From Cryobacterium sp. GrIS_2_6 (lineage in GTDB: Bacteria; Actinomycetota; Actinomycetes; Actinomycetales; Microbacteriaceae): 64,000 bases of DNA. The DNA lies in the NCBI RefSeq assembly GCF_035984545.1, contig NZ_JAXCHP010000001.1:4092001-4156000 (forward strand). The letters run 5' to 3'. Below the pieces are notes generated by a model that was not told the DNA's origin, ran no database searches, and saw only the letters and a list, made by a program, of their open reading frames with translations. How positions within the stretch are numbered: position 1 is the stretch's first letter; each line of letters opens with the position of its first letter. Positions 2,178-64,000 of the stretch are shown here, piece after piece. A program made the translations under genes and the position numbers.

Positions 2178-3089
2178 CTATCGGGTTCGGCGGCGGTACT
2201 GGACGTCGACACTGCGATCGGTGAATCCGAGGGACCGATACAGCCGCACGGCGGGCACATTGTCGCCCTCGACATAGAGCGTCGCCCTGGTCGCCCCGCG
2301 CTGGCGCAGACGCTCGAGTCCCGCGGTCATCAGCCGGCGTCCGAGGCCGTGCCCGCTCCACTCGGGGCTCACCCCCACCACGTAGATCTCACCCTCGGCT
2401 GCTCCCGGCTCGATCTTCAGCCAGTTGTAGCCGACCAGGGCGCCGCCGACGCGGGCGACGAGGAAGTCGCCCGCGTCAAACCAGGCCTCGTTCATTCGGG
2501 CGGCGAGGTCGGCTGCGGTGATGCCGCCCTGCTCGGGGTGGATGGCGAAGGTCCGGGCATTCAGGACCACCCAGGCGTCCGCATCCGTTTCGGGGTCGAA
2601 GGCGGCGATCACGATCGCGTCGTCCTCCTCCCGAGCGGTAGCCCGCTCCGGGGCAGCGGATGCCGGGGGAGCGGCTGCGTCGAGCGCCAGTTCCAGCTGG
2701 AGCAGGCGACGGGCGGCGTCGAAGCCGAAGCGCCCGGCGAGGGCGCGGGCCGCCGGGTGATCGCCGTGCGCCCAGGCGGTCAGGTCGTCCGGCGCCGCCG
2801 CCGCGTACGCGGGATCACCGAAGAGCTCGGTCAGGGCCACGGTGGCGTGGCCGTGCCTGCGGAACTCGGGGTGCACCACGAGGTCGAGCTCGCCCGAGCC
2901 GAGGACGAGGGCTCCGACGGCCGCGTCGCCGTCGCGAAGCAGAAAGGGAGTGCGGCGCCCGGCCGCGAGATCGAGGGTGGCCTGCTCGTTGAGCGGGGCA
3001 TACCCGTCGACGCGTTCGGCGGCATCCGTCACCGCGTCCCAGGAGAGCGCGAAGGCGCTGTCGTCAGGCCCGTGCGACGGATTGATCAC
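2178..3089 (-). CDS. mshD: Mycothiol synthase (GNAT acetyltransferase) MshD
   Basis: Last step of mycothiol synthesis: acetylates Cys-GlcN-Ins using acetyl-CoA. The protein has two tandem GNAT domains. The C-terminal half carries [13 protein letters not shown], the MshD signature [18 protein letters not shown] (acetyl-CoA pyrophosphate loop) and [19 protein letters not shown], which together are diagnostic. I chose the GTG at 3087-3089, which has AGAGG six bases upstream; an ATG at 3111-3113 in the same frame would deepen the overlap with glnR. It overlaps the 3' end of glnR by 26 bp, so the two are probably co-transcribed. Mycothiol itself supports an actinobacterial host. Confidence 0.93.
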
Positions 3090-3756
3090 GCACGACCTCT
3101 GGTTCCTGCACATTAAAGCGGTATCCGACGTTGCGCACGGTGCCGATCAGGGATTCCTGGTCGCCGAGCTTGGCGCGGAGGCGGCGGACGTGCACGTCGA
3201 CCGTGCGGGTGCCGCCGAAGTAGTCGTAGCCCCAGACCTCGCTGAGCAGCTGCTCGCGGGTGAAGACCCGGGAGGGATGGGCCGCGAGGAAGCGGAGCAG
3301 TTCGAATTCCTTGTACGTGAGGTCGAGCGGTCGGCCGTAGACCTTCGCGGAATAACTCGCCTCGTCGATGACGACACCGGCGGCGCGGATCAGCGCGGAC
3401 TCCTCGGCCCGCGGCGTGCGGCCGGCGGCGAGGCGGATGCGGGCGTCGACCTCGGCGGGACCCGCCGTATCCAGGATCACGTCGTCGATGCCCCAGCCGG
3501 GGCTGACCGCGGCGAGGCCGCCCTCGGTGATCACGAGAAGCAGCGGGACCTGGCTGCCCGTCGTCTGCATGATCTGGCACAGCGACTTGGCGGCCATCAG
3601 GTTGGTGCGGGCGTCGACCAGGATGACATCGGAGTCCGGGGCGGTGATGAGCTGGTCGGGCTGGGCCGGAATGACGCGGATTCCATGCGAGAGCAACGCC
3701 AGCGCCGGCAGGACCTCCCCGCCGACCGCAGAGGTCAGGATCAATAATTGCGCCAC
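3064..3756 (-). CDS. glnR: GlnR-type atypical response regulator (nitrogen regulator)
   Basis: Actinobacterial GlnR is an orphan OmpR-family regulator of nitrogen-assimilation genes. Seen here: an N-terminal receiver-like domain with [13 protein letters not shown] ([10 protein letters not shown]) and [19 protein letters not shown] segments, then a winged-helix domain with [40 protein letters not shown] and [11 protein letters not shown]. GlnR proteins keep the receiver fold but lack a normal phosphorylation pocket. The GTG start at 3754-3756 is preceded by GGAGGG five bases away, better than the upstream start at 3783. Its neighbour mshD overlaps its end. Confidence 0.92.
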
Positions 3757-3839
3757 GCGGGCCCTCCAACCATTGTTGGCCAATCCTAGCGTGCAGCCGC
3801 GTGCAGCCCATTGCTCCCATGGCAGGGCACAATAGAGGA

Positions 3840-4103
3840 GTGAAGTGGCAGTGGAGAAGCGTCGGCCTGGTCTGGGCGTTCGCCGTGGTCTGTTCTGTGC
3901 TCACCGGGACCCTCGCGGCGCCCGGTCGTTCCCTCGTGTGGATCGGTCTGTCCCTCGCGGGATGCACCATCGGTACCCTCTCCATCCAGCTCGCGACCGG
4001 CCAAAAAGAGGGTTACGTGCACCGGGTCACGCTGAGCCTCGTCGGCGCGGTCGTCGTCCTCGCCGCCGCGACCGGGATCTTCGCGCTCGCCGGGCTTCTG
4101 TAA
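3840..4103 (+). CDS. Small membrane protein, function unknown
   Basis: An 87-residue protein of about three hydrophobic segments ([56 protein letters not shown]). The start is uncertain: the GTG at 3840 follows a CACAAT hexamer by six bases, which would suit a leaderless transcript; ATG 3819 in the same frame is the alternative. It is divergent from glnR. I recognise no named family. Confidence 0.6.
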
Positions 4104-4174
4104 CGAACTGGTAAAGCCGCGCCGGGTGCCCCCGCGCAGGCGTTTCGGCTCTCGCCGGGAGCTAAGGTGGTGTC

Positions 4175-4288
4175 ATGTCAATCCTCGCGCTCGAAATCTT
4201 CTTCCTGGGCCTCCTCGCGCTCGCGAGCCTGTCGATCGCCTGGGTCTCCGGCGTCGTGTTGTTCAAGCTGTTCCGGGGGCAGCGGTAA
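4175..4288 (+). CDS. 37-residue single-pass membrane miniprotein
   Basis: ATG at 4175 with AAGGTGG centred about eight bases upstream; stop TAA at 4286-4288. The product is almost entirely one hydrophobic helix (LEIFFLGLLALASLSIAWVS) followed by a short basic tail FRGQR. It sits seven bases before the nitrobindin gene, so the two are probably co-transcribed. Too short for most gene callers. The role is unknown. Confidence 0.6.
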   Translation: MSILALEIFFLGLLALASLSIAWVSGVVLFKLFRGQR

Positions 4289-4954: not shown

Positions 4955-5021
4955 TCCCGGCGGCTCCCGCGTTGTCCCCGATGTGCGCCTCAGCGTCACA
5001 CAAACCCCGGAAGAAGTCCTC

Positions 5022-6203
5022 ATGACCCCGCCGATAGCATCCGTTTCAGCCCTGCTCGACCTGCCCGGCGCCGTGCAGGCCACCGGCCCCGATGCCGGCG
5101 TCGCCGCACATTACGGCAACCCGATGATCGAGCAGCGTCACCTGCTCGCCGGCGAGGCCATCGTCGACCTCTCCAACCTTGCGGTGCTCGGCGTCTCCGG
5201 CCCGGACCGGCTGACCTGGCTCAATTCGATCACGAGCCAGGAGCTGCGGTTTCTGGTGCCGGGGGAATCGGCTGAGACCCTCGTGCTCGACCCCACCGGG
5301 CACATCGAGCACGCGGTGCGGCTCGTCGACGACGGCACGGAGGCGTGGCTCGTCGTCGAGGCCGCCGAACTGCCCGCACTGCTTGCGTGGCTCGACCGGA
5401 TGCGCTTCATGCTGCGGGTCGAACTGCGCGACCGCACCGATGAGTATGCCGTCATCGGAACGATGGGGAGCATCGGCGACCTCGCCGCAGCCGCGCCCGC
5501 GCTCGAACCCGCCGCGCCGAACGGAACCCCCCTCGTCTGGCACGACCCGTGGGCTGCCGTCGTCACCGGCGGCTTCCAGTACGCGGAAGACCCTGCGCAT
5601 CCCGGTGCCGACTGGCACTGGACCGAGGCCCTCGTGCCCCGCACCGTGCTTCCCGCCCTGACGCCGGCCGTCCGCCGCGGAACCGTGCGCGCGGCCGGCC
5701 TGCTCGCCCTCGAAGCGCTCCGGATCGCTGCCTGGCGGCCCCGCCGGGCTACAGAGGTCGACGACAGGACCCTCCCGCACGAACTCGACTGGCTGCGCAG
5801 CGCCGTGCACCTGAACAAGGGCTGCTACCGCGGCCAGGAGACCGTCGCGAAGGTACACAACCTCGGGCACCCCCCGCGGCGGCTCGTGCTGCTGCACCTC
5901 GACGGCTCCCAGGGCGTGCTGCCGGTGCATGGCGACGAAGTCCAGGCCGTCCGGCGACTTGCAGACGGCGACACAGAGCGTCGCGGCGTCGGCTCGATCA
6001 CCTCGAGTGCGATCCACTACGAGCTCGGGCCGATCGCACTCGCCGTCGTCAAACGCACCGTGCCGGCAACGGTCGTGCTCCAGGTGCTGAGCGAGGAGAT
6101 CGCGGTCGCCGCGACCCAGCAGGTCATCGTTCCGCAGTCGGCCGGCTCGGTCGCCGAGATCCCCCGGCTGCCCCGGCTGGGCATCCGCACCCCCGGACAC
6201 TGA
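5022..6203 (+). CDS. ygfZ: YgfZ/GcvT-fold folate-binding protein
   Basis: A tetrahydrofolate-dependent helper in iron-sulfur cluster maintenance, paralogous to the glycine-cleavage T protein. The hallmark KGCYRGQE motif with the reactive Cys is present (HLNKGCYRGQETVAKVHNLG, about residues 264-283). N-terminal ISNLA-like (VDLSNLAVLGVSGPDRLTWL) folate-domain sequence is clear. The ATG at 5022 with GGAAGAAG upstream is preferred over an in-frame GTG at 4983. 393 residues, a normal actinobacterial length. Confidence 0.92.
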   Translation: MTPPIASVSALLDLPGAVQATGPDAGVAAHYGNPMIEQRHLLAGEAIVDLSNLAVLGVSGPDRLTWLNSITSQELRFLVPGESAETLVLDPTGHIEHAVRLVDDGTEAWLVVEAAELPALLAWLDRMRFMLRVELRDRTDEYAVIGTMGSIGDLAAAAPALEPAAPNGTPLVWHDPWAAVVTGGFQYAEDPAHPGADWHWTEALVPRTVLPALTPAVRRGTVRAAGLLALEALRIAAWRPRRATEVDDRTLPHELDWLRSAVHLNKGCYRGQETVAKVHNLGHPPRRLVLLHLDGSQGVLPVHGDEVQAVRRLADGDTERRGVGSITSSAIHYELGPIALAVVKRTVPATVVLQVLSEEIAVAATQQVIVPQSAGSVAEIPRLPRLGIRTPGH

Positions 6204-6248
6204 CCCCAGTCACCGACCACCGGCCCTGCTCTCGATAGAGTTGGAGGC

Positions 6249-45901: not shown

Positions 45902-47776
45902 CTAAACTTTAAACGCCAGCCTCTGTAGCTCAACGGAAGAGCAGTTCCGTCCTAAGGAAACGGTTGGGGGTTCGAATCCCTCCAGGGGCACCATAGACGG
46001 CTTACTCGAACCCTGTGCAGGTTCCATCGCCTGTAGCAAGTCGTCTAGGTTATTGCGCAACGCGTCCACCCTCTGGGGTGGGCGCGTTTTCGTTATTTGG
46101 TCATATGCAGCCTTCGCCACTGCATCATCGGCGAGACCCGCCGTCTGAGCCGCGAAGCCTTTTTGTGCCGCCAGCAACTCAGCGACGGGTTCGTTCAATT
46201 CGAAGTCCACCACTTCATCGTTCCTGACCCATATGCGTTTGAAGATCGCCTGATTGAGTTTTCGGCGGGTCTCGTCCGACGATTGCTTGTAGAGCGTGTG
46301 TGGGTCAGCAAGAAGGTCGAGCCAATCGCTGATGTACTGGCCACCTACGGAGAGATCGTCGTTGACCTGATCAAGCTGCTCTTGAAGCCGTGCCCGCAGC
46401 CGTTCTATCTCGCGAAGCTTGGCGCGAACACGCTCGGCCGCAATCTGACCGTCTGCAGCAAGGTCGATGAGGTTGTCAGTCTTCACTGAGAGCGCTTTTA
46501 GTTGCTGTCGGAGCTGGTGATGAAGGAGTTTCTGAGTATTCTCCGCGTCGCCGAGCGTCGACTCGATGAGTGCTTTGATCGCCGCGATGAAGTCTGGTTT
46601 GAATTGAACAGCAGTCTTGTAGTGCTCTGTCACGGCGTCCTCGAGTGCGATTTGCGGAACGTAACGCGAATCGCAGATTCCCTCCTGCTTACCGCGGCAG
46701 AAGAAGTAGAAGTACTCGCCCCCGTTATTACCGATCGACCGTTGAACGATCATGCGGCTATCCGGGATGTCGCGGTCCTGCTTACAGTGACCACACCACA
46801 CACTCCCTTTCAGATAGTGCGGGTACAGACGTCGTCGTTCGCCGGCTACTCCTCGTGTTTCCAGGAGATCTTGCACGCGGTCGAAGACTGTCGAATCGAC
46901 GATGGCCGGGTGGCGCCCGTCGAACACTTCGCCCTTATAGACGACCAACCCGAGGTAGTACTTGTCGCGCAGCATGCGCGACATCTTGGACATAGACACT
47001 GGGCCTGCTGGATGACGACCAGTGGGTCTGGTTGTGAGGCCTCTGTCCGTGAGGGTGTCGACGATATCTTCCATTGTGTGATCACCGGTCGCGTACATGG
47101 CGAACGCGAGTTTCACGAAGGGCGCACGCTCGGCATCGACGGTGACCGAACGAATCTCGCGACCGTCGTACCGGTCGATCGAGTTGATATATCCGATCGG
47201 TGCGCGCCCAATGGTGCCGCCGGTCTTGGCCTTTTGGCTCATTTTGTAGGCGATATCTGCGCCGTCCTTCGCAGAACGATATTCGTTGAATGCTGCGAGG
47301 AGCCCCTGCATAAGCTGCCCGACCGGTGACTCGTCGATCGACTCGGTCGCGGAGATGAGGGTGACGCCCCGCTTCTTGAGGTCAGCCATGACGATGGCAT
47401 CGTCGGTACGGTTTCGGGTGAGTCGGGAGAGTTCATAGACGATTACGTAGTCGATGTCCTTTTCGCGGCGAATGCGCTCGAGCATCTGTTGGAAGGCCAC
47501 TCGCCGAGTCATCTCGGTTGCTGATTTTCCCGGTTCCACATACTCGGACACCACGTTGATGCCCATTTGCTCAGCTTTGCGCACACATGACGAGCGCTGG
47601 GCTGGAATTGAAAGTCCTTCCGGGTCGTAGTCGGTGTTTACCTGGCCCTTGGAAGAAACGCGCAGATACAGCACGGCGCGGGTGCCGGCCGGGGCAATGA
47701 TTTCCTCCGGCTCGTCCACGGGCGATGCGGGTGCGCTCGTGAACGCCGCGGGCTGTTGGTCATCGAGCAGGCTCAT
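45902..47776 (-). CDS. Large serine recombinase (integrase)
   Basis: 624 residues. Resolvase catalytic domain AVLYLRVSSKGQ (nucleophile about Ser41), VIVYELSRLTRNRTDDAIV, the recombinase domain (GRAPIGYINSIDRYDGREIR onward), zinc ribbon SVWCGHCKQDRD with later CRGK and CDSR, and a coiled coil (about 400-470). The last 30 residues, VPLEGFEPPTVSLGRNCSSV onward, are a reverse translation of tRNA-Arg, so the gene end is fused to the host tRNA by integration. AAAGGAG precedes the start; it overlaps the small gene upstream. Confidence 0.93.
   Translation of the reverse strand: MSLLDDQQPAAFTSAPASPVDEPEEIIAPAGTRAVLYLRVSSKGQVNTDYDPEGLSIPAQRSSCVRKAEQMGINVVSEYVEPGKSATEMTRRVAFQQMLERIRREKDIDYVIVYELSRLTRNRTDDAIVMADLKKRGVTLISATESIDESPVGQLMQGLLAAFNEYRSAKDGADIAYKMSQKAKTGGTIGRAPIGYINSIDRYDGREIRSVTVDAERAPFVKLAFAMYATGDHTMEDIVDTLTDRGLTTRPTGRHPAGPVSMSKMSRMLRDKYYLGLVVYKGEVFDGRHPAIVDSTVFDRVQDLLETRGVAGERRRLYPHYLKGSVWCGHCKQDRDIPDSRMIVQRSIGNNGGEYFYFFCRGKQEGICDSRYVPQIALEDAVTEHYKTAVQFKPDFIAAIKALIESTLGDAENTQKLLHHQLRQQLKALSVKTDNLIDLAADGQIAAERVRAKLREIERLRARLQEQLDQVNDDLSVGGQYISDWLDLLADPHTLYKQSSDETRRKLNQAIFKRIWVRNDEVVDFELNEPVAELLAAQKGFAAQTAGLADDAVAKAAYDQITKTRPPQRVDALRNNLDDLLQAMEPAQGSSKPSMVPLEGFEPPTVSLGRNCSSVELQRLAFKV
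45919..45993 (+). tRNA. tRNA-Arg (anticodon CCT)
   Basis: Seven-bp acceptor (45919-45925 with 45983-45989, one G-T), D-arm, anticodon loop GTCCTAA with CCT at 45951-45953, T-arm and encoded CCA (45991-45993). The first anticodon-stem pair (45944/45960) is mismatched. A recombinase gene reads into it from the right. Confidence 0.93.
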
Positions 47777-57576: not shown

Positions 57577-57789
57577 AAAGACGCGATGCGCCAATGCACA
57601 CCGTGACGGTTGAGGATAGAAGGACTCTCGCTGCTCCTTACGGTCTCCGTTTCCACCTTTACCGAACAATCCTTTCAGTCGAATTGTTTGCGAGGCCAAC
57701 CAAACCTTGACTGCTCAGATTCGCCCATCACTGCGGCGCGCCGTGGCATCATGGACCTAACGTCAGGTAGATCGGAGCAACGTCGAAGC

Positions 57790-58863
57790 ATGAGTGATTA
57801 CGCAACAGGTGTCGTGGTGGCTACCGAAGTCCGCGGGCCGCGCACAAAGACCGGATCGGGGTTCCTGCAGCCGAGCGTGATTGCCGAGTTCGACGATCTC
57901 TGGGACCGACCGGAACGGGTCGCCGTACCGGTGGCGCACCTGCGCCAGGCGGATGTCTGGTCACGCGTGCGGGAGCTGCCGATTGACCGCGCCGGGCTGG
58001 CGGAGGCAGTAGGGCGGATCCATCCGCAAGCGTACGTCGACGAACTCGCGCGCGATCCGATCCGGTCCGATCCGGCGCTCGACGCCTGCGCCGCGGTCCT
58101 GACGATGGGGAGAGCAGTCGCGCGGGGCGACGTGCGAAACGGCTATGCCCTCGTGCGCCCCGCCGGGCATCACGCCGCGACGTCCAGCGCCGGCGGTGGA
58201 GGCTGTGTGTTCGCCCACAGCGCGGTGCTCGCAAGAGAGCTTCAATCCCTCGGCTTCGCACGCGTCGCGATCGTCGACTGGGATGCACACCACGGCAACG
58301 GCGCCCAGGGCATATTCTGGGAGGATGAGTCGGTACTAACGATCTCCCTCCATCAGGACCGGGAAGCGTGGGTGTCTTCTGACGGTTCGGTGGATGCGGT
58401 CGGTGCGGGCCGGGGCAGTCTCCGGAATGCCAATTTGCCGTTCGCACCCGGCGCTGGCGGCGCTGCGTACGCGCTGGCGATGAAGTCGGTGGTGGCGCCG
58501 CTCTGCGCCCGATTCGTGCCGGATGTCGTGATCGTCAGCTGCGGGTTCGATGGATCGAACGTCGATCCAGCTGCACGACTGCAGCTGTGTGCGGCCGATT
58601 ACTTTGAGATGACACGAATCGTGATGGCTATCGCTGACGCCGCCTGCGATGGCCGGCTTGTAATACTGCATGAGGGTGGGTACGCGGTGTCCTACGTGGC
58701 GATCTGTCTGGAGTCTGTGCTGCTCGCACTCAGCGGGGGGGAACCGGCGCCGGACCGGTACGCGGATCGGTGGGGCGAAGGCTTTGCTGGATCCCCGCGC
58801 GCGTCCGATTTGGACCTCGTGAGGGCATCGATTGAACGACACAAGCTGGATGTGCACCTGTGA
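57790..58863 (+). CDS. Histone-deacetylase-fold amidohydrolase
   Basis: 357 residues, class II HDAC/acetylpolyamine-amidohydrolase type. ALVRPAGHHAATSSAGGGGC holds the catalytic His pair; IVDWDAHHGNGAQGIFW and VIVSCGFDGSNVDPAA carry the zinc Asp/His/Asp; LHEGGYAVSYV the C-terminal loop. It hydrolyses acyl-amides. ATG 57790 is the natural start of the fold. Ends overlap the dioxygenase (GTGA). In this locus it may remove an acyl group from a product or precursor; inference. Confidence 0.88.
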   Translation: MSDYATGVVVATEVRGPRTKTGSGFLQPSVIAEFDDLWDRPERVAVPVAHLRQADVWSRVRELPIDRAGLAEAVGRIHPQAYVDELARDPIRSDPALDACAAVLTMGRAVARGDVRNGYALVRPAGHHAATSSAGGGGCVFAHSAVLARELQSLGFARVAIVDWDAHHGNGAQGIFWEDESVLTISLHQDREAWVSSDGSVDAVGAGRGSLRNANLPFAPGAGGAAYALAMKSVVAPLCARFVPDVVIVSCGFDGSNVDPAARLQLCAADYFEMTRIVMAIADAACDGRLVILHEGGYAVSYVAICLESVLLALSGGEPAPDRYADRWGEGFAGSPRASDLDLVRASIERHKLDVHL

Positions 58864-59720
58864 CGACTGTTTTCACGACGGTCCCGATCGGGAGGTTTGG
58901 CGCGGTCGTCGAGGGGATCGATCTTCGCGAGCCTGCAGACGACTCAACCGTACGACAGCTGCGGGAGGCGCTAGCGGAGTTTCAGCTGCTGCACTTTCGC
59001 GATACACGGATCGGCCCTGCCGACCAGCTCCGCCTGACTGCGTACTTCGGAGACCTCGATCTGGGGATCTCGCGCCGGCCTCGGTCGCATCAGGTGAACG
59101 GGTATCCGGATTTGTTGTACATTCGCAATTCTCCCGACTCACCGACGATGGAATACGGAATGGCCTGGCACTCGGACGGTCTGGCGTATGCGAGACGTCC
59201 GCACGGCGCCACGGCGCTGCACTGCCTCGAATGCCCCTCGGGTCCGGGGGGCGACACGCTATTCGCAGACCAGTACGGGGCCTATGAGTCGATTCCCGAC
59301 GATGTGCGCCCGTCGCTTGACGGGCTGTACTGGTACCTCCCATCAATCGATCATTCGGAGGTCCCCGAGGGCCGGGGGCTCATTCAGCCGATCGTGCGCG
59401 TGCACCCGGTCACCGGGCGCCGGTTCATCTACTGCTCCCCGCAGGCGACTCGGCTCCGCGGCCTCACTGACGCTCAGAGCGACAGAATCCTGGGTATCGT
59501 CCATGCCTCGCAGGTCGAGGAAGAGTTGGTTTACCGGCATTCCTGGCGTTCGGATGACGTCGTGATCTGGGAGAACGCGTCGCTTCTGCATAACCGGGCC
59601 GAGGTGCTCGACTTTTCGAGCCAGGGGCTCCGGGAAATGCATCGCTCGGCGACGACAGGGGACGTCGAAGCGACGGAGTGCGAGGCCGTCGACGCTGTGA
59701 ACTTCGAGCAACGCGCGTAG
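58860..59720 (+). CDS. TauD/TfdA-family Fe(II)/2-oxoglutarate dioxygenase
   Basis: 286 residues. VPIGRFGAVVEGIDLREPAD start, iron motif GMAWHSDGLAYARRP (HxD), the distal His in ENASLLHNRAEVLD and a 2-oxoglutarate Arg in REMHRSATTG. TauD-like enzymes hydroxylate or otherwise oxidise small acids and peptides. GTG 58860 overlaps the amidohydrolase stop. The substrate cannot be read from the sequence. Confidence 0.88.
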   Translation: MTTVFTTVPIGRFGAVVEGIDLREPADDSTVRQLREALAEFQLLHFRDTRIGPADQLRLTAYFGDLDLGISRRPRSHQVNGYPDLLYIRNSPDSPTMEYGMAWHSDGLAYARRPHGATALHCLECPSGPGGDTLFADQYGAYESIPDDVRPSLDGLYWYLPSIDHSEVPEGRGLIQPIVRVHPVTGRRFIYCSPQATRLRGLTDAQSDRILGIVHASQVEEELVYRHSWRSDDVVIWENASLLHNRAEVLDFSSQGLREMHRSATTGDVEATECEAVDAVNFEQRA

Positions 59721-59760
59721 AGGGCGCGCGAACGTTGAAAAAACCACGACACTGGTATTA

Positions 59761-59789
59761 TTGACCGAATCGTGCGCATGCTTTATAGT
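59761..59789 (+). promoter_or_regulatory. Near-consensus promoter of the HisRS-like gene
   Basis: TTGACC, 17-base spacer, TATAGT. The ATG at 59800 lies 11 bases past the -10, so the transcript is nearly leaderless. Confidence 0.75.
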
Positions 59790-59799
59790 CATCGCCAGC

Positions 59800-61143
59800 A
59801 TGAACAATCGACCGCCCCGAACTAACAGCCGAGAATCGAGTTCTGCGTTGCCCCTCTCTACGAAACCCTATCGAGGCACGCGGGACTTTCTGCCCGAAGA
59901 GATGTCGATTCGGACGCAAATCTTCGAGTCGTTATTCAAGACAGCCGAGCTGTTTGGGTTCGAGCGCTACGATGGGCCGATCATCGAGCCCGCTGCAATT
60001 TACGAGGCGAAGTCCGGCAAGGAGATCGTCGACGAGCAGATGTACCGATTCACAGACAAGGGCGGGCGCGAAATCGTCTTGCGACCGGAGATGACGCCGT
60101 CGGTAGCGCGAATGATCGCCGGCCACCAGGCCGATGTTGTCTTTCCGGCGCGTTGGTACTCGCACATCAACGCCCACCGGTATGAACGACCGCAACGCGG
60201 CCGAGTGCGCGAGCACTGGCAGCTCAACCTTGACATCTTCGGCAGCGAAGACCTCGGGGCAGAGATCGAGATGTTCGAGCTGATTGCCGCGCTTTTGAAC
60301 GGGCTCGGTGCGGACCCCTCGATGTATGTCATCCGCGTGAACGACCGGGGCTTGCTCGATGCCGGGCTCAGGAACTATGTCCGTGTGTCTGACGAGAATC
60401 TCGCGGCCATAGGCAAAGTCATTGATCGCTGGGAGAAGATCGACGATGAACAGCGGTCGGAATCCCTGCGTGGTGCTGGTCTCGACCCCGAGCAGGACGC
60501 CCGTTTGCGCGCGCTGCTCGCCATGGATCTGGCGTCGTTTGTCGATGTCGCGGGAGAGGACGCAGCGTCCCATTCGCGGATCGTGCGGATCATAGGTGAA
60601 CGGATGACCTCAGTACCGCTTGAGTTTTCCCCACACATCATCCGAGGATTTGACTACTACACGTCCACAGTGTTTGAGGTGTTCGACACCTCGCCGGATA
60701 ACCGCCGTTCCCTGTTCGGAGGCGGGCGCTATGACGATCTCGCGAGTCTGTTCACTGACCGAAAGATCCCGGGTATCGGCTGCGGGATGGGCGACGTGAC
60801 TGTAGTCGACTTCCTCACGACCCACGGTCTCCTTCCAAAGCCGGACTTCGGCCCGGACGTGTACGTCTTCGGGACAGGCGACGACCTGCTCGCGGACGCT
60901 CGTCGACTGACTAGAGTGCTTCGCGACGCTGGCATCCGCTCTGTGCCAGCCCTAGGCGCTATGACAGTACGCGCGGGGGTTAAGTTCGCCGACAGGACGG
61001 GCGTCCGATTCGCCGTGATCATCGGTGACAACGAGCAAGCATCCGGAAAAGTGTCGTTGAAGAACATGCAGACGTCTGAACAAGTCAGCATGCTAGAGAG
61101 CGACGTTGCGCGATTTGTGTCAGAAGCCTTGGCTGCGTCATAG
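59800..61143 (+). CDS. hisS2: Divergent histidyl-tRNA synthetase paralogue
   Basis: 447 residues. Class II core: YRGTRDFLPEEMSIRTQIFE, motif 1 region PIIEPAAIYEAKSGKEIVDE, LRPEMTPSVARMI, motif 2 YERPQRGRVREHWQLNLDIF, HisA-type IIRGFDYYTSTVFEVFD, GGGRYDDL, and a C-terminal anticodon-domain-like part. The usual motif 3 ...GxERL is replaced by GIGCGMGDVTVVDFL, so the ATP-contacting Arg is not in its normal place. A normal hisS is expected elsewhere. It may supply His-tRNA for a tRNA-dependent step, or give self-resistance; inference. Confidence 0.85.
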   Translation: MNNRPPRTNSRESSSALPLSTKPYRGTRDFLPEEMSIRTQIFESLFKTAELFGFERYDGPIIEPAAIYEAKSGKEIVDEQMYRFTDKGGREIVLRPEMTPSVARMIAGHQADVVFPARWYSHINAHRYERPQRGRVREHWQLNLDIFGSEDLGAEIEMFELIAALLNGLGADPSMYVIRVNDRGLLDAGLRNYVRVSDENLAAIGKVIDRWEKIDDEQRSESLRGAGLDPEQDARLRALLAMDLASFVDVAGEDAASHSRIVRIIGERMTSVPLEFSPHIIRGFDYYTSTVFEVFDTSPDNRRSLFGGGRYDDLASLFTDRKIPGIGCGMGDVTVVDFLTTHGLLPKPDFGPDVYVFGTGDDLLADARRLTRVLRDAGIRSVPALGAMTVRAGVKFADRTGVRFAVIIGDNEQASGKVSLKNMQTSEQVSMLESDVARFVSEALAAS

Positions 61144-61158
61144 AGCGGCTGTTAGTAT
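61129..61158 (+). promoter_or_regulatory. Candidate promoter of the precursor-like peptide
   Basis: TTGGCT, 18-base spacer, TAGTAT, inside and just after the end of the HisRS-like gene; GAGGGAG ribosome site follows at about 61176. Confidence 0.45.
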
Positions 61159-61188
61159 CTCAGGCATACCAATGTGAGGGAGTGTCGA

Positions 61189-61395
61189 ATGAGCCTTTCA
61201 ACAAATGCTGTGGTCACCAAGTCCGAGTCGGCCGAAGTGCTGGCGTTCCGGACAGAAACGCGTTCTGTGGTGGTGGGTGACTCTGGCACGACGTTGTCAT
61301 CGAGCGTCACTGGTTTGCGTGGTGGCGCTGTGCAGGTTTCCGGCTACTCGCTCGAGTTGTACCTCAACGCCTGTAGCCCGACCTGTCACGGCTGA
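61189..61395 (+). CDS. 68-residue candidate precursor peptide
   Basis: ATG 61189 with GAGGGAG upstream. The leader-like first 58 residues (MSLSTNAVVTKSESAEVLAF..., Ser/Thr/Val-rich) end in a distinct tail YLNACSPTCHG with Cys62, Cys66, His67 and C-terminal Gly68. Size, position before enzymes and a Cys-rich end are typical of ribosomally made peptide precursors or peptide scaffolds. No known class matched by eye. A small protein with another role remains possible. Confidence 0.65.
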   Translation: MSLSTNAVVTKSESAEVLAFRTETRSVVVGDSGTTLSSSVTGLRGGAVQVSGYSLELYLNACSPTCHG

Positions 61396-62114
61396 CCATT
61401 CCTCGTCGGGTTGGATGGTTCCTGCCGCGTGCCCTCGAGGCGCGAGCCATCTGGTTTGACCCTGAACCCTACGCAGAGCAAAAGGATTATCGCGAGCAAA
61501 AAGGGCTCATCCGCTTCTGTCCCGCGTCACGAGACTTCTCGAGCAGTCTTTACACGATTCGGAGCCCCTTTGATCTCCAGATGCACTGTGAGTTGACCCG
61601 CGACGGATGCACGGTGTCGGTGGGAGAAAAATCAAGCATCCGGGCCGACAAGCTCGCGCCGCTGCTCAAGGTGCATCCGCGTGAGGAGTGGCGCCACTCC
61701 GACCGCCCGCTCATGCAGATGATGCTGAACTACTACTTCATCTCAGACGACGATGTCGACATCCAATATCTCTCGCCGCTGACGACGACCTACTTCGAGC
61801 CGGCTCTGCCCGGGCTTGTGCTCCAGGGGCGCTGGAATATTCGCTCCTGGGTGAGGCCGGTGAACTTCGTCTTCGAATGGTGGGACACCTCGACCCCTCT
61901 GTTCATTGCGCGGGGCGCACCGATCCTCAACCTAATGTTCCTGCCCGGCCGGGGGGGCAAAGTGGAGTTGATCGAGGCAGAGGAGACTGATGAGGTCGTG
62001 GCGATGGCCCGTGGCGTCCAGAACGTTAACTCCTACATCAGGAACGTTGACTCGGTGATGCCGTCGCTCCTGAAGCGACGGCCAAAGACGCTGGTGAAGC
62101 CGTGGAAGAACTGA
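61392..62114 (+). CDS. Uncharacterised protein, apparent CTG start
   Basis: The frame from ATG 61581 is 177 residues, but upstream in frame the sequence is clearly protein-like (FLPRALEARAIWFDPEPYAE, DYREQKGLIRFCPASRDFSS, LYTIRSPFDLQMHCEL), back to a stop at 61374-61376. No ATG, GTG or TTG lies there; CTG 61392 overlaps the peptide stop as CTGA. With it the protein is 240 residues. The core (MMLNYYFISDDDVDIQYLSP, GRWNIRSWVRPVNFVFEWWD, SYIRNVDSVMPSLLKRRPK) resembles an uncharacterised family also met in phage genomes, by memory only. Confidence 0.7.
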   Translation: MTIPRRVGWFLPRALEARAIWFDPEPYAEQKDYREQKGLIRFCPASRDFSSSLYTIRSPFDLQMHCELTRDGCTVSVGEKSSIRADKLAPLLKVHPREEWRHSDRPLMQMMLNYYFISDDDVDIQYLSPLTTTYFEPALPGLVLQGRWNIRSWVRPVNFVFEWWDTSTPLFIARGAPILNLMFLPGRGGKVELIEAEETDEVVAMARGVQNVNSYIRNVDSVMPSLLKRRPKTLVKPWKN

Positions 62115-63298
62115 GCCGCCTCATCTTCCGCAGCGCACACGGGGACCGCTACCTGGAGGCACGCGATTCCGACTCAATCGTCGACGTGTGCCGACGCTAC
62201 AGCTTGCCGGTCACGCAGGTCTCGGTATACCGGGAGGGTGCGCGGGGCCAGCTGACTCTGCAGGTCCGGCCCTATGATCGCCTTCTGGACTATCGCGGCG
62301 ACGACATGATTGTCGTCATCCCGAACCGGAACATTGACTACCACGCGCTGCTCGGCGGCCGCGACGTCGTCCGCGAGCGACCCGACGCCTCGACCTGGAT
62401 ACGTCAGCGAGCCGACGACGGCGACGGGTTTGTCACAGAGTACCTCCGCCCGTCCGACGCGATGGATCTTGTCTCGGCTCAGGTTGCGACGGCACTCGAG
62501 GCCAGCGGGGTCAAGGACGAACCGCTCATCGTCGGGGTGAGTGGTGGCGGCGATAGCAATGCCCTCCTAGAGGCGATCGTGCGATCCGGTGTCGTGGCGA
62601 AGGAGAACATCCGACCAGTCATGATGCTCGGTATCCCCGACTGGGACCGTGGCTGGGAACGGGCCACCGCGATCTGTGACAGGCACGGCCTTGCTCTCCG
62701 CACCGTGCAGGAGGACGAGACTGCGAGGATTCTGGGATTCGTGGAACCCCATGTGGACTGGGTCACGGCGTTCGAGCGCCAGTTCCCTGGCGACGATCTG
62801 GAGGTGCTCGGAGTCTACGGCGTTCGACGTGTGCTCGACGCGGTCGCCCAGGAGCAGGGTGCCAGGCGGATCGTCATCGGCAGCAATCTGGAGGATTGTC
62901 TGTCCGACACCCTGTACTACCTGGCCGCAGGGAAGGTTCCGTTCCCCAAGCCCGTTGGCCGGATGGGCGAGGTCGAGATCCTTTACCCGCTCTGGCTCAC
63001 GCCAAAGTCGTTGATTGACGGCTGCTTTCCGAAGTTCTCCCTGCAGAACTACGAGGCCCGGTACCCGAGCCGGATGTACGGCAGGGCCTACTTCTACTAC
63101 CTGGCGCAGATGATGGTCGATGCCTATCCAGGGGCAGCGCAGGATCTGTTACGAGGTTCCAGCCGCCTCGCGGCGGAAAAGTTCGACGAGCTTCTAAATG
63201 ATGACGAGTTTGGCACTCCTGTCGCCGCCCCCATTCCGCTGGATGTACGGGTCCGTCTGCGACGACTCTTTGGCCGTCAGGCGGGGGGCGTTCGATGA
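62102..63298 (+). CDS. PP-loop ATPase (TtuA/Ncs6-like) with N-terminal beta-grasp-like domain
   Basis: 398 residues from GTG 62102. Residues 1-77 (LIFRSAHGDRYLEARDSDSI, VTQVSVYREGARGQLTLQVR) look like a ThiS/TGS-type beta-grasp fold. The PP-loop is PLIVGVSGGGDSNALLEAIV (SGGGDS 147-152), and RIVIGSNLEDCLSDTLYYLA parallels the HNLDDEAQ helix of tRNA-thiolation enzymes. No Cys-zinc fingers. The family adenylates a carbonyl, commonly for sulfur insertion. Overlaps both neighbours (13 and 4 bp). Confidence 0.8.
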   Translation: MEELSRLIFRSAHGDRYLEARDSDSIVDVCRRYSLPVTQVSVYREGARGQLTLQVRPYDRLLDYRGDDMIVVIPNRNIDYHALLGGRDVVRERPDASTWIRQRADDGDGFVTEYLRPSDAMDLVSAQVATALEASGVKDEPLIVGVSGGGDSNALLEAIVRSGVVAKENIRPVMMLGIPDWDRGWERATAICDRHGLALRTVQEDETARILGFVEPHVDWVTAFERQFPGDDLEVLGVYGVRRVLDAVAQEQGARRIVIGSNLEDCLSDTLYYLAAGKVPFPKPVGRMGEVEILYPLWLTPKSLIDGCFPKFSLQNYEARYPSRMYGRAYFYYLAQMMVDAYPGAAQDLLRGSSRLAAEKFDELLNDDEFGTPVAAPIPLDVRVRLRRLFGRQAGGVR

Positions 63299-64000
63299 CC
63301 CCCTCCGACTCCACGCCCCCGCAATACGACCTGAAGCGTCTGAAGTGGATGGACCCGACGTCGGCAGAGAGATTCCGTCGGCGAGAGCTCGAACTCTCCA
63401 CGGGTGCAACTGACATGGACATTCTCGACGACATCGCCCGTCTGACCGACCGGCTGTTCGACGATCTATCAGTGCTCGGCCAGTCCCCAGAGGCCACAAG
63501 CCGAGGGGCTGAGGGCGATTCGCTCCTGGAGGTCGATTTGTCGAGCATTCGCGCTCGGCTGGCCCGAGCGCGCGACGAACTCGCGACTGGTTACTCCACG
63601 CTGCGGGCGGCCCGGGAAAAGTTCGTAGCCGAACAGCTCGAGGTGGTGCGGGCTGCGACGCGGCACGCGCCGACGCGGCTACACATCGGCTCTGGTGGGC
63701 ATCGACTCGATGGTTGGGTTAACATCGACGCCGGGGGCGACGACTTGGCGCTCAACGTGAACTGGGGCCTGCCATTCCCCGACGGGAGCGTTGCGTTTGT
63801 CTACGCGGCACACCTCTTGGAGCACATGCGATTTCGCGATCAGGCTCCCGTCCTGGTGGCCGAGATCCTCCGTGTGCTAGAGCCGGGCGGAACCGCCAGG
63901 TTCGTGGTGCCGGATGTCGGTCGGCTCCTCGAGGCGTATGTCTCCAAGGACTCGGGCTTCTTCGCGGCGCGGAATCGGTTCTACCCGCTTAGTGAGGGCT
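63295..64000 (+). CDS. SAM-dependent methyltransferase (3' end outside window)
   Basis: Open from ATG 63295 (ATGA overlap) to the right edge, 235 codons. A helical N-terminal region of about 120 residues, then LHIGSGGHRLDGWVNIDAGG (SAM motif I), LPFPDGSVAFVYAAHLLEHM and ILRVLEPGGTARFVVPDVGR, a class I methyltransferase of the type seen in sugar and natural-product clusters. Substrate unknown. Confidence 0.85.
   Translation, partial: MTPSDSTPPQYDLKRLKWMDPTSAERFRRRELELSTGATDMDILDDIARLTDRLFDDLSVLGQSPEATSRGAEGDSLLEVDLSSIRARLARARDELATGYSTLRAAREKFVAEQLEVVRAATRHAPTRLHIGSGGHRLDGWVNIDAGGDDLALNVNWGLPFPDGSVAFVYAAHLLEHMRFRDQAPVLVAEILRVLEPGGTARFVVPDVGRLLEAYVSKDSGFFAARNRFYPLSEG

Follow-up and report, generated by a model that had tools for sequence, protein, structure and literature searches.

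Introduction

Agrocin is not a ribosomal product, and its producer carries AgnB2 as immunity. In PMC7916415, AgnB2 is described as a leucyl-tRNA synthetase (LeuRS) resistant to TM84. By the account given in PMC7136475, microcin C is a ribosomal peptide that is processed to an aspartyl-adenylate analogue blocking the aspartyl-tRNA synthetase (AspRS), its 7-residue precursor being adenylated by MccB. Acetylation of the MccE type is described as acting on microcin C, and PMC7157772 states that HIT hydrolases confer microcin C resistance. Here, a 64-kb stretch of contig C1 of Cryobacterium sp. GrIS_2_6 (bases 4092001-4156000 of a 4.34-Mb genome, hereafter the window) was analyzed, near the end of which genes for a 68-residue peptide, a PP-loop ATPase and a second histidyl-tRNA synthetase (HisRS) are located on one strand. 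We consider it fairly probable that this locus represents an undescribed family resembling the ribosomally synthesized and post-translationally modified peptides (RiPPs), the product of which would mimic the penultimate residue (X) of its precursor and inhibit the aminoacyl-tRNA synthetase of that residue, with the spare synthetase acting as immunity.

The proposed likeness to microcin C is that the C-terminal end of a ribosomal peptide would become an aminoacyl-adenylate mimic blocking one synthetase. Furthermore, GNAT genes near the window operon and at loci L010 and L012 recall MccE-type acetylation, and a HIT hydrolase gene lies about 2 kb from the L006 precursor. Unlike the precursor of microcin C, with its 7 or so residues, that of the window has 68 and those elsewhere have about 47-80 (taking likely starts), while the likely maturase is a fusion of a ubiquitin-like domain with a PP-loop domain. 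MccB is ThiF-like, and no ThiF family was present in the Pfam matches of the operon and the next genes. The likeness to agrocin 84 and AgnB2 lies in the linked extra synthetase, proposed here to be the resistant copy; in contrast to the non-ribosomal agrocin, the spare synthetase here varies in step with an encoded residue. In the open-access literature searched, neither a PP-loop RiPP class nor a rule of matched synthetases was found described, and no natural HisRS inhibitor turned up.

Match between the spare synthetase and the penultimate residue

HisRS is encoded beside the PP-loop gene in 17 of the 53 distinct loci compared, namely the window, 15 related actinobacterial loci and the Patescibacterium locus L151. 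Penultimate His is present in all 17 precursors at these loci and in none of the 22 other identified precursors (Fisher 2e-11, not corrected for relatedness). By lineage, the precursor tails and the linked synthetases are as follows.

Window lineage: ..CHG, penultimate His; HisRS
15 related actinobacterial loci: ..AH[FYLI]; HisRS
Patescibacterium G1489: ..MSHI; HisRS with catalytic and anticodon domains
Patescibacterium G1216: ..NGWG; extra tryptophanyl-tRNA synthetase (TrpRS; locus L010)
Xanthomonas arboricola: ..TFYG; extra tyrosyl-tRNA synthetase (TyrRS) after the C-terminal piece of the PP-loop gene (L015)

When one tail per lineage was compared over the last eight positions, the synthetase matched the residue at position -2 in all five lineages, and at -1 and -3 to -8 in none of the five. 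Three lineages (window, G1216, X. arboricola) first revealed the match, and the actinobacterial and G1489 loci were obtained afterwards. The best internal control is provided by the precursor family with the motif G[MIL]DR[MI]T.., in which 15 loci with His have HisRS and three loci with Gln do not. The linked synthetases are extra copies. At least two HisRS copies were found in each of the 16 cassette genomes tested, and two in G1489, versus a single copy in each of two genomes tested with ..TAQV precursors; no HisRS was present in the stretches examined of the ..SALTAQV loci (L018, L074, L075). Genes of the Tyr/TrpRS family number three in X. arboricola, three in G1216 and two in the L006 genome. 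Since a second synthetase matching one encoded residue is the pattern expected for self-resistance to a residue-specific synthetase inhibitor, an immunity role is suggested for a gene that the original prediction had listed without a role.

The window HisRS shares 27.5% identity with the genome's other copy (G000:C1:2279448-2280662). Its catalytic and anticodon-binding domains are both present, and it aligns with the solved HisRS 1wu7 through its active-site motifs. None of 200 bootstrap trees united the window HisRS with the actinobacterial cassette HisRS, for which reason the recruitment of HisRS seems to have been repeated; it should be noted that the branch leading to the window copy is very long and that the bootstrap had not converged. 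A tree of the PP-loop protein (FastTree, midpoint root, support values not displayed) joins the window (His) to X. arboricola (Tyr). It also pairs the His and Gln groups and places the Trp locus beside the Thr/Phe loci. Joint changes of synthetase and residue therefore seem to have occurred repeatedly, and the HisRS trees agree with this.

The window HisRS is 48-50% identical to a HisRS in a plasmid cluster of Streptomyces goshikiensis (L156 14055-15356), where a nucleoside-diphosphate kinase (NDK), an adenylate-forming enzyme, aminotransferases and a methyltransferase are also encoded. No PP-loop match was found on this plasmid, and the cluster was rejected as a family member, the only two small open reading frames (ORFs) with His at -2 being far from hisS and likely chance frames. 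It is possibly another HisRS-directed pathway. After the X. arboricola TyrRS (L015 426-1388) come an MFS-like frame (by eye) and genes for a DUF455 protein and a methyltransferase. A protein of L006 (4964-6250) contains HLGT and KLSKS and appears class I synthetase-like by eye; the frame (4964-6247) has no family or meaningful PDB match and was not counted as a synthetase.

The precursor peptide

The likely start of the window precursor is the ATG at 61189, which is preceded by GAGGGAG, with an alternative GTG start at 61174. The tail reads ..LELYLNACSPTCHG, its penultimate His being encoded at 61387-61389, and the core region ..NACSPTCHG contains two Cys, one Ser and one Thr. Compared with the X. 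arboricola peptide, which is encoded beside the closest relative of the PP-loop gene, 22 of 68 residues are identical (pairwise E 6e-7), and the aligned tails are ..VSGYSLELYLNACSPTCHG in the window and ..VSCYGLERYLNPSSATFYG in X. arboricola.

Selection was examined over the last 32 codons of the 15 related actinobacterial precursors. For their 105 pairs, the mean synonymous difference (pS) was 0.445 and the mean nonsynonymous difference (pN) 0.182, a ratio of means of 0.41, and pN was below pS in 101 pairs. Because pN lies well below pS over these pairs, the precursor is translated and constrained; the 15 precursors are under purifying selection, and their penultimate His is invariant (15/15).

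Conservation and distribution of the peptide and PP-loop genes

A precursor gene conserved together with a nearby maturase gene is a general feature of RiPPs, and at 39 of the 53 loci the PP-loop gene is preceded by a short precursor-like ORF. These loci span Actinomycetota, Proteobacteria, Patescibacteria and a Geobacillus plasmid. The ORF usually stands directly upstream; in the window, a gene of unknown function intervenes. The original prediction had proposed an undescribed peptide-derived pathway made up of seven genes. All seven are present on the + strand where it placed them, no description of such a class was found, and a short ORF is indeed kept upstream of the PP-loop gene in other phyla too, a conservation that the prediction had itself put forward as a test. 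The seven genes as a conserved set did not hold: only the peptide and PP-loop genes recur, joined by HisRS at the 17 loci given above. By blastp, none of the ORFs compared at other loci paired with the HDAC, TauD, unknown or methyltransferase gene of the window, and the whole set was rejected as a unit. Further members of the TauD family are present at L018 and L012, with a weak match at L074.

A pattern-based scan with the PP-loop protein, covering one genome per species for 84,980 species, gave 11 loci corresponding to 10 genes, one of them split over two contigs. They belong to X. arboricola, an alphaproteobacterial metagenome-assembled genome, Sulfitobacter, Paracaedibacteraceae, three Streptomyces, Patescibacteria, Kitasatospora and Bartonella (a broken copy). 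Among 72,556 plasmid records the gene was found in four (Xenorhabdus, Pantoea, Paenarthrobacter, Geobacillus). Profile A1, built from 14 PP-loop sequences, matched 8 of 394 genomes of the class. In two single families it matched 26 of 298 and 13 of 345 genomes, in the family of X. arboricola 1 of 178, and in the phylum to which the Patescibacterium belongs 2 of 211. A profile scan of IMG/VR contigs gave no confirmed member, and when 297 genomes of the order were searched with a single sequence, the own genome alone was found.

The neighbors common to all 15 actinobacterial cassettes are the precursor, PP-loop and HisRS genes only. Helix-turn-helix regulators recur near many of these cassettes, and ORFs of one group follow HisRS in 6 of the 15 (L082, L084, L085, L086, L087, L089). 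The one member of this group that was scanned (L086 11473-12366) is an APH-fold phosphotransferase, and it may be a second resistance or tailoring gene.

The PP-loop protein

The PP-loop protein combines a ubiquitin-like N-terminal domain with an ATPase of the TtuA/NcsA/TilS type. The SGGxDS motif of TtuA and NcsA is present as SGGGDS at residues 147-152 of the window protein, and the fold is shared. The Pfam match is weak and below the cut-off (PF01171, E 0.015); the profile match to NcsA/TtuA is clear, and among solved structures tRNA thiolases and TilS come closest. The nearest relative in sequence, from X. arboricola, is 54-56% identical. For the N-terminal beta-grasp domain, modeled separately, Foldseek matches include 5gha_F and 5ztb_E (TMt 0.70), with eukaryotic ubiquitin-like domains ranking higher; TtuB, the sulfur carrier with which TtuA has been solved, is among the matches. 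The carrier-like domain is fused to the PP-loop ATPase here and, unlike a carrier of the TtuB type, therefore has no free C-terminus.

The enzyme differs from TtuA and NcsA in its linkage to a peptide gene and in its cysteines. The CxxC of 6scy aligns with non-cysteine residues of the window protein, and no CxxC pair was found across the 14 aligned PP-loop sequences, the only positions rich in Cys being window residues 120 (11 sequences), 192 (13) and 308 (8). The CxxC residues are ligands of the [4Fe-4S] cluster of the thiolases, and canonical Fe-S thiolase chemistry was set aside on account of the missing pair. In the Geobacillus plasmid protein (L019 11659-12879), a C-terminal CxxC..CxxC that is zinc-ribbon-like by eye is retained, and this protein is possibly an early-branching form.

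Organization of the window locus and its surroundings

A closely spaced run of seven genes on the + strand extends from 57751 to 64266, from the HDAC-fold hydrolase through the methyltransferase.

57751..58863, + strand: HDAC-fold amidohydrolase (PF00850, E 3.7e-62)
58860..59720, + strand: TauD-type dioxygenase (E 4.4e-46)
59761..61143, + strand: second HisRS (TIGR00442, 328 bits against a cut-off of 286.75)
61189..61395, + strand: precursor peptide gene, 68 aa (open frame 61174-61395)
61392..62114, + strand: unknown protein (frame open from the CTG at 61392; first ATG/GTG/TTG start is the ATG at 61581)
62102..63298, + strand: PP-loop protein, 398 aa
62102..62347, + strand: beta-grasp (ubiquitin-like) domain of the PP-loop protein (separate model, pLDDT 83.7)
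63295..64266, + strand: methyltransferase, running past the window end at 64000

The genes for the HDAC-fold and TauD-type proteins overlap by 4 nt, those for the unknown and PP-loop proteins by 13 and those for the PP-loop protein and methyltransferase by 4. The HDAC-fold amidohydrolase would act in tailoring or deprotection and the dioxygenase in tailoring. The unknown protein has no Pfam match and a single plasmid homologue (Paracoccus pAMI5, 32%); the CTG from which its frame is open overlaps the stop of the peptide gene. Upstream, a large serine recombinase gene (45902-47776) overlaps a tRNA-Arg(CCT) gene (45919-45993) and is followed by replication-relaxation-like and TraG/VirD4-like genes (names assigned by eye), because of which the locus is probably part of an integrated mobile element.

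Beyond the window end, a 1.1 kb gap at about 64270-65400 (L002 10266-11404) contains minus-strand frames that resemble a decayed gene. Thereafter follow, on the window scale:

65404-66105, + strand: GNAT gene
about 66102-68207, - strand: SagB-YcaO fusion gene (SagB and YcaO domains matched)
68381-69046, - strand: protein with an HExxH motif (by eye)

Further on are an RHH protein and type I restriction genes. The earlier statement that YcaO is lacking is correct within the window and fails once the sequence is extended; it was an effect of the window edge, since the fusion gene lies past it. The fusion gene recalls azol(in)e RiPPs of the YcaO/SagB kind. In contrast to those systems, it lies outside the operon, at 1.8 kb from the last operon gene and in convergent orientation, and has no partner among the ORFs compared in other loci and no plasmid relatives at E 1e-10.

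Other branches of the family

Type A loci (..GASCETGAQ and similar) contain an enolase gene in L007 (5032-6321), L070 (7021-8421) and L072, accompanied by NDK-like and amidase genes, and an enolase-directed branch is possible. As a general immunity marker enolase was judged weak: an extra copy is present in G931 and G964, but the copy at L007 is the sole one found in its genome, and two enolases are also present in four genomes in which none was seen at the locus (G950, G988, G1605, G1608). For type B, a phosphonopyruvate decarboxylase gene (L012 3892-5235) lies about 5 kb from the precursor, and a lysine/ornithine monooxygenase is common to L012 and L011. The type B product is perhaps phosphonate- or hydroxylamine-bearing. 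The type B cluster of L011 also contains an argininosuccinate-synthase-like gene (2804-4276), another kind of PP-loop enzyme.

Proposed process and its weighing against alternatives

In the process proposed here, the 68-residue precursor would first be made, with its C-terminal ..Cys-His-Gly as the core. The PP-loop enzyme, perhaps holding the leader by its ubiquitin-like domain, would then adenylate, at the expense of ATP, a carbonyl close to the C-terminus (that of X being the likeliest), and the modified X could be a thioamide, an amidine or a stable adenylate. Subsequently, the methyltransferase, TauD and HDAC-fold enzymes, perhaps with the SagB-YcaO fusion and the downstream acetyltransferase, would decorate or trim the product. 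The small molecule released would resemble histidine or histidyl-adenylate and block HisRS, while the divergent second HisRS would keep the producer alive. In relatives, X would be Tyr or Trp and the spare synthetase correspondingly TyrRS or TrpRS. Because the 15 actinobacterial cassettes share only precursor, PP-loop and HisRS genes, the PP-loop enzyme should be able to make the active group with little help. The wider proposal, to which we give slightly less than even credence, is of a new RiPP class in which a ubiquitin-like/PP-loop ATPase converts the penultimate residue into a synthetase inhibitor, with one codon setting the target and the matching synthetase swapped in as immunity.

Several observations weigh against a synthetase inhibitor with matched immunity. 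The 15 actinobacterial loci are close relatives, hence the association really rests on five lineages. Of the 406 positions of its family, the X. arboricola TyrRS covers only 5-308; the missing C-terminal part is the tRNA-binding one, and without it the enzyme may not charge tRNA. The HisRS frame is broken at L076, the PP-loop frame at L080 and at Bartonella L014, and the PP-loop gene of X. arboricola is split over two contigs. Furthermore, no linked His, Tyr or Trp synthetase is present at 34 of the 53 loci, and no class II synthetase for G, H, P, S or T was found in the stretches examined of 11 genomes. At the Phe-type locus L012, 10 further ORFs included no phenylalanyl-tRNA synthetase (PheRS), and at the Gln-type loci L074/L075, 10 further ORFs included no glutaminyl-tRNA synthetase (GlnRS). 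With neither enzyme in these 20 ORFs, the Phe- and Gln-type branches are without a visible matching target; no search was made for AlaRS and other synthetases. No precursor was identified at 14 of the 53 loci (L014, L031, L032, L077-L079, L091-L098), a motif search at 13 type G loci found none, and no transporter or protease gene common to the actinobacterial cassettes was seen.

The truncated TyrRS would fit the alternative that the synthetase paralogue is a biosynthetic enzyme, which activates or transfers amino acid X during assembly of the product instead of conferring immunity. Such a TyrRS could form Tyr-AMP without charging tRNA, and no more than about 1 kb separates the synthetase from the PP-loop gene in the observed cases. 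However, X is already in the precursor and therefore no enzyme is needed to add it, the HisRS and TrpRS copies examined span the full length, and partial checks found no cognate synthetase in related clusters whose -2 residue is Gln, Thr or Phe; we regard this role as unlikely, although it is the likeliest of the alternatives. A lower probability still is given to the window cluster being a thiazole/oxazole-modified microcin (TOMM), in which the SagB-YcaO fusion would cyclize Cys, Ser and Thr of ..NACSPTCHG with the PP-loop enzyme as an accessory. The matched SagB and YcaO domains at so short a distance from the operon, and the two Cys, one Ser and one Thr of the core, are compatible with this chemistry. 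The convergent YcaO gene nevertheless lies beyond the GNAT gene and about 1.1 kb without a convincing gene, nothing pairs with it among the ORFs compared at other loci, and what all 15 actinobacterial relatives share is the precursor, PP-loop and HisRS set.

The relationship of the PP-loop protein to tRNA thiolases and TilS raises the question of whether it modifies tRNA, acting with the extra synthetase on tRNA(His/Trp/Tyr) in alternative decoding or defence, the peptide being secondary. This appears very improbable, given that the CxxC pair of the thiolases is not conserved, that the peptide is under selection, that similar ORFs occur where no synthetase was seen, and that, of 10 stretches scanned, nine had no tRNA gene and one had tRNA-Arg. 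Least credible, to the point of being nearly dismissed, is that the short ORF is a regulatory leader (an attenuator or arrest peptide) sensing charged tRNA(X) through its penultimate codon. A single X codon beside the last codon, linked to the synthetase for X, is what such a leader could look like. However, the ORF follows the synthetase gene in the window, in G1216 and in G1489 and therefore cannot attenuate it. At the amino acid level, 15 loci show constraint over the last 32 codons, and the ORFs at loci where no synthetase was seen speak against this role as well.

Implications

If the proposed inhibition of a synthetase by a modified penultimate residue is correct, the actinobacterial cassette of precursor, PP-loop and HisRS genes would be a minimal natural HisRS inhibitor system, with other branches of the family aiming elsewhere. 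PP-loop ATPases, known from tRNA modification, would gain a role in peptide maturation. Moreover, the family would offer encoded inhibitors of aminoacyl-tRNA synthetases from a source scattered across taxa, a HisRS inhibitor included, in which the target would be predictable from one residue and the resistant target enzyme would be supplied by the cluster itself.

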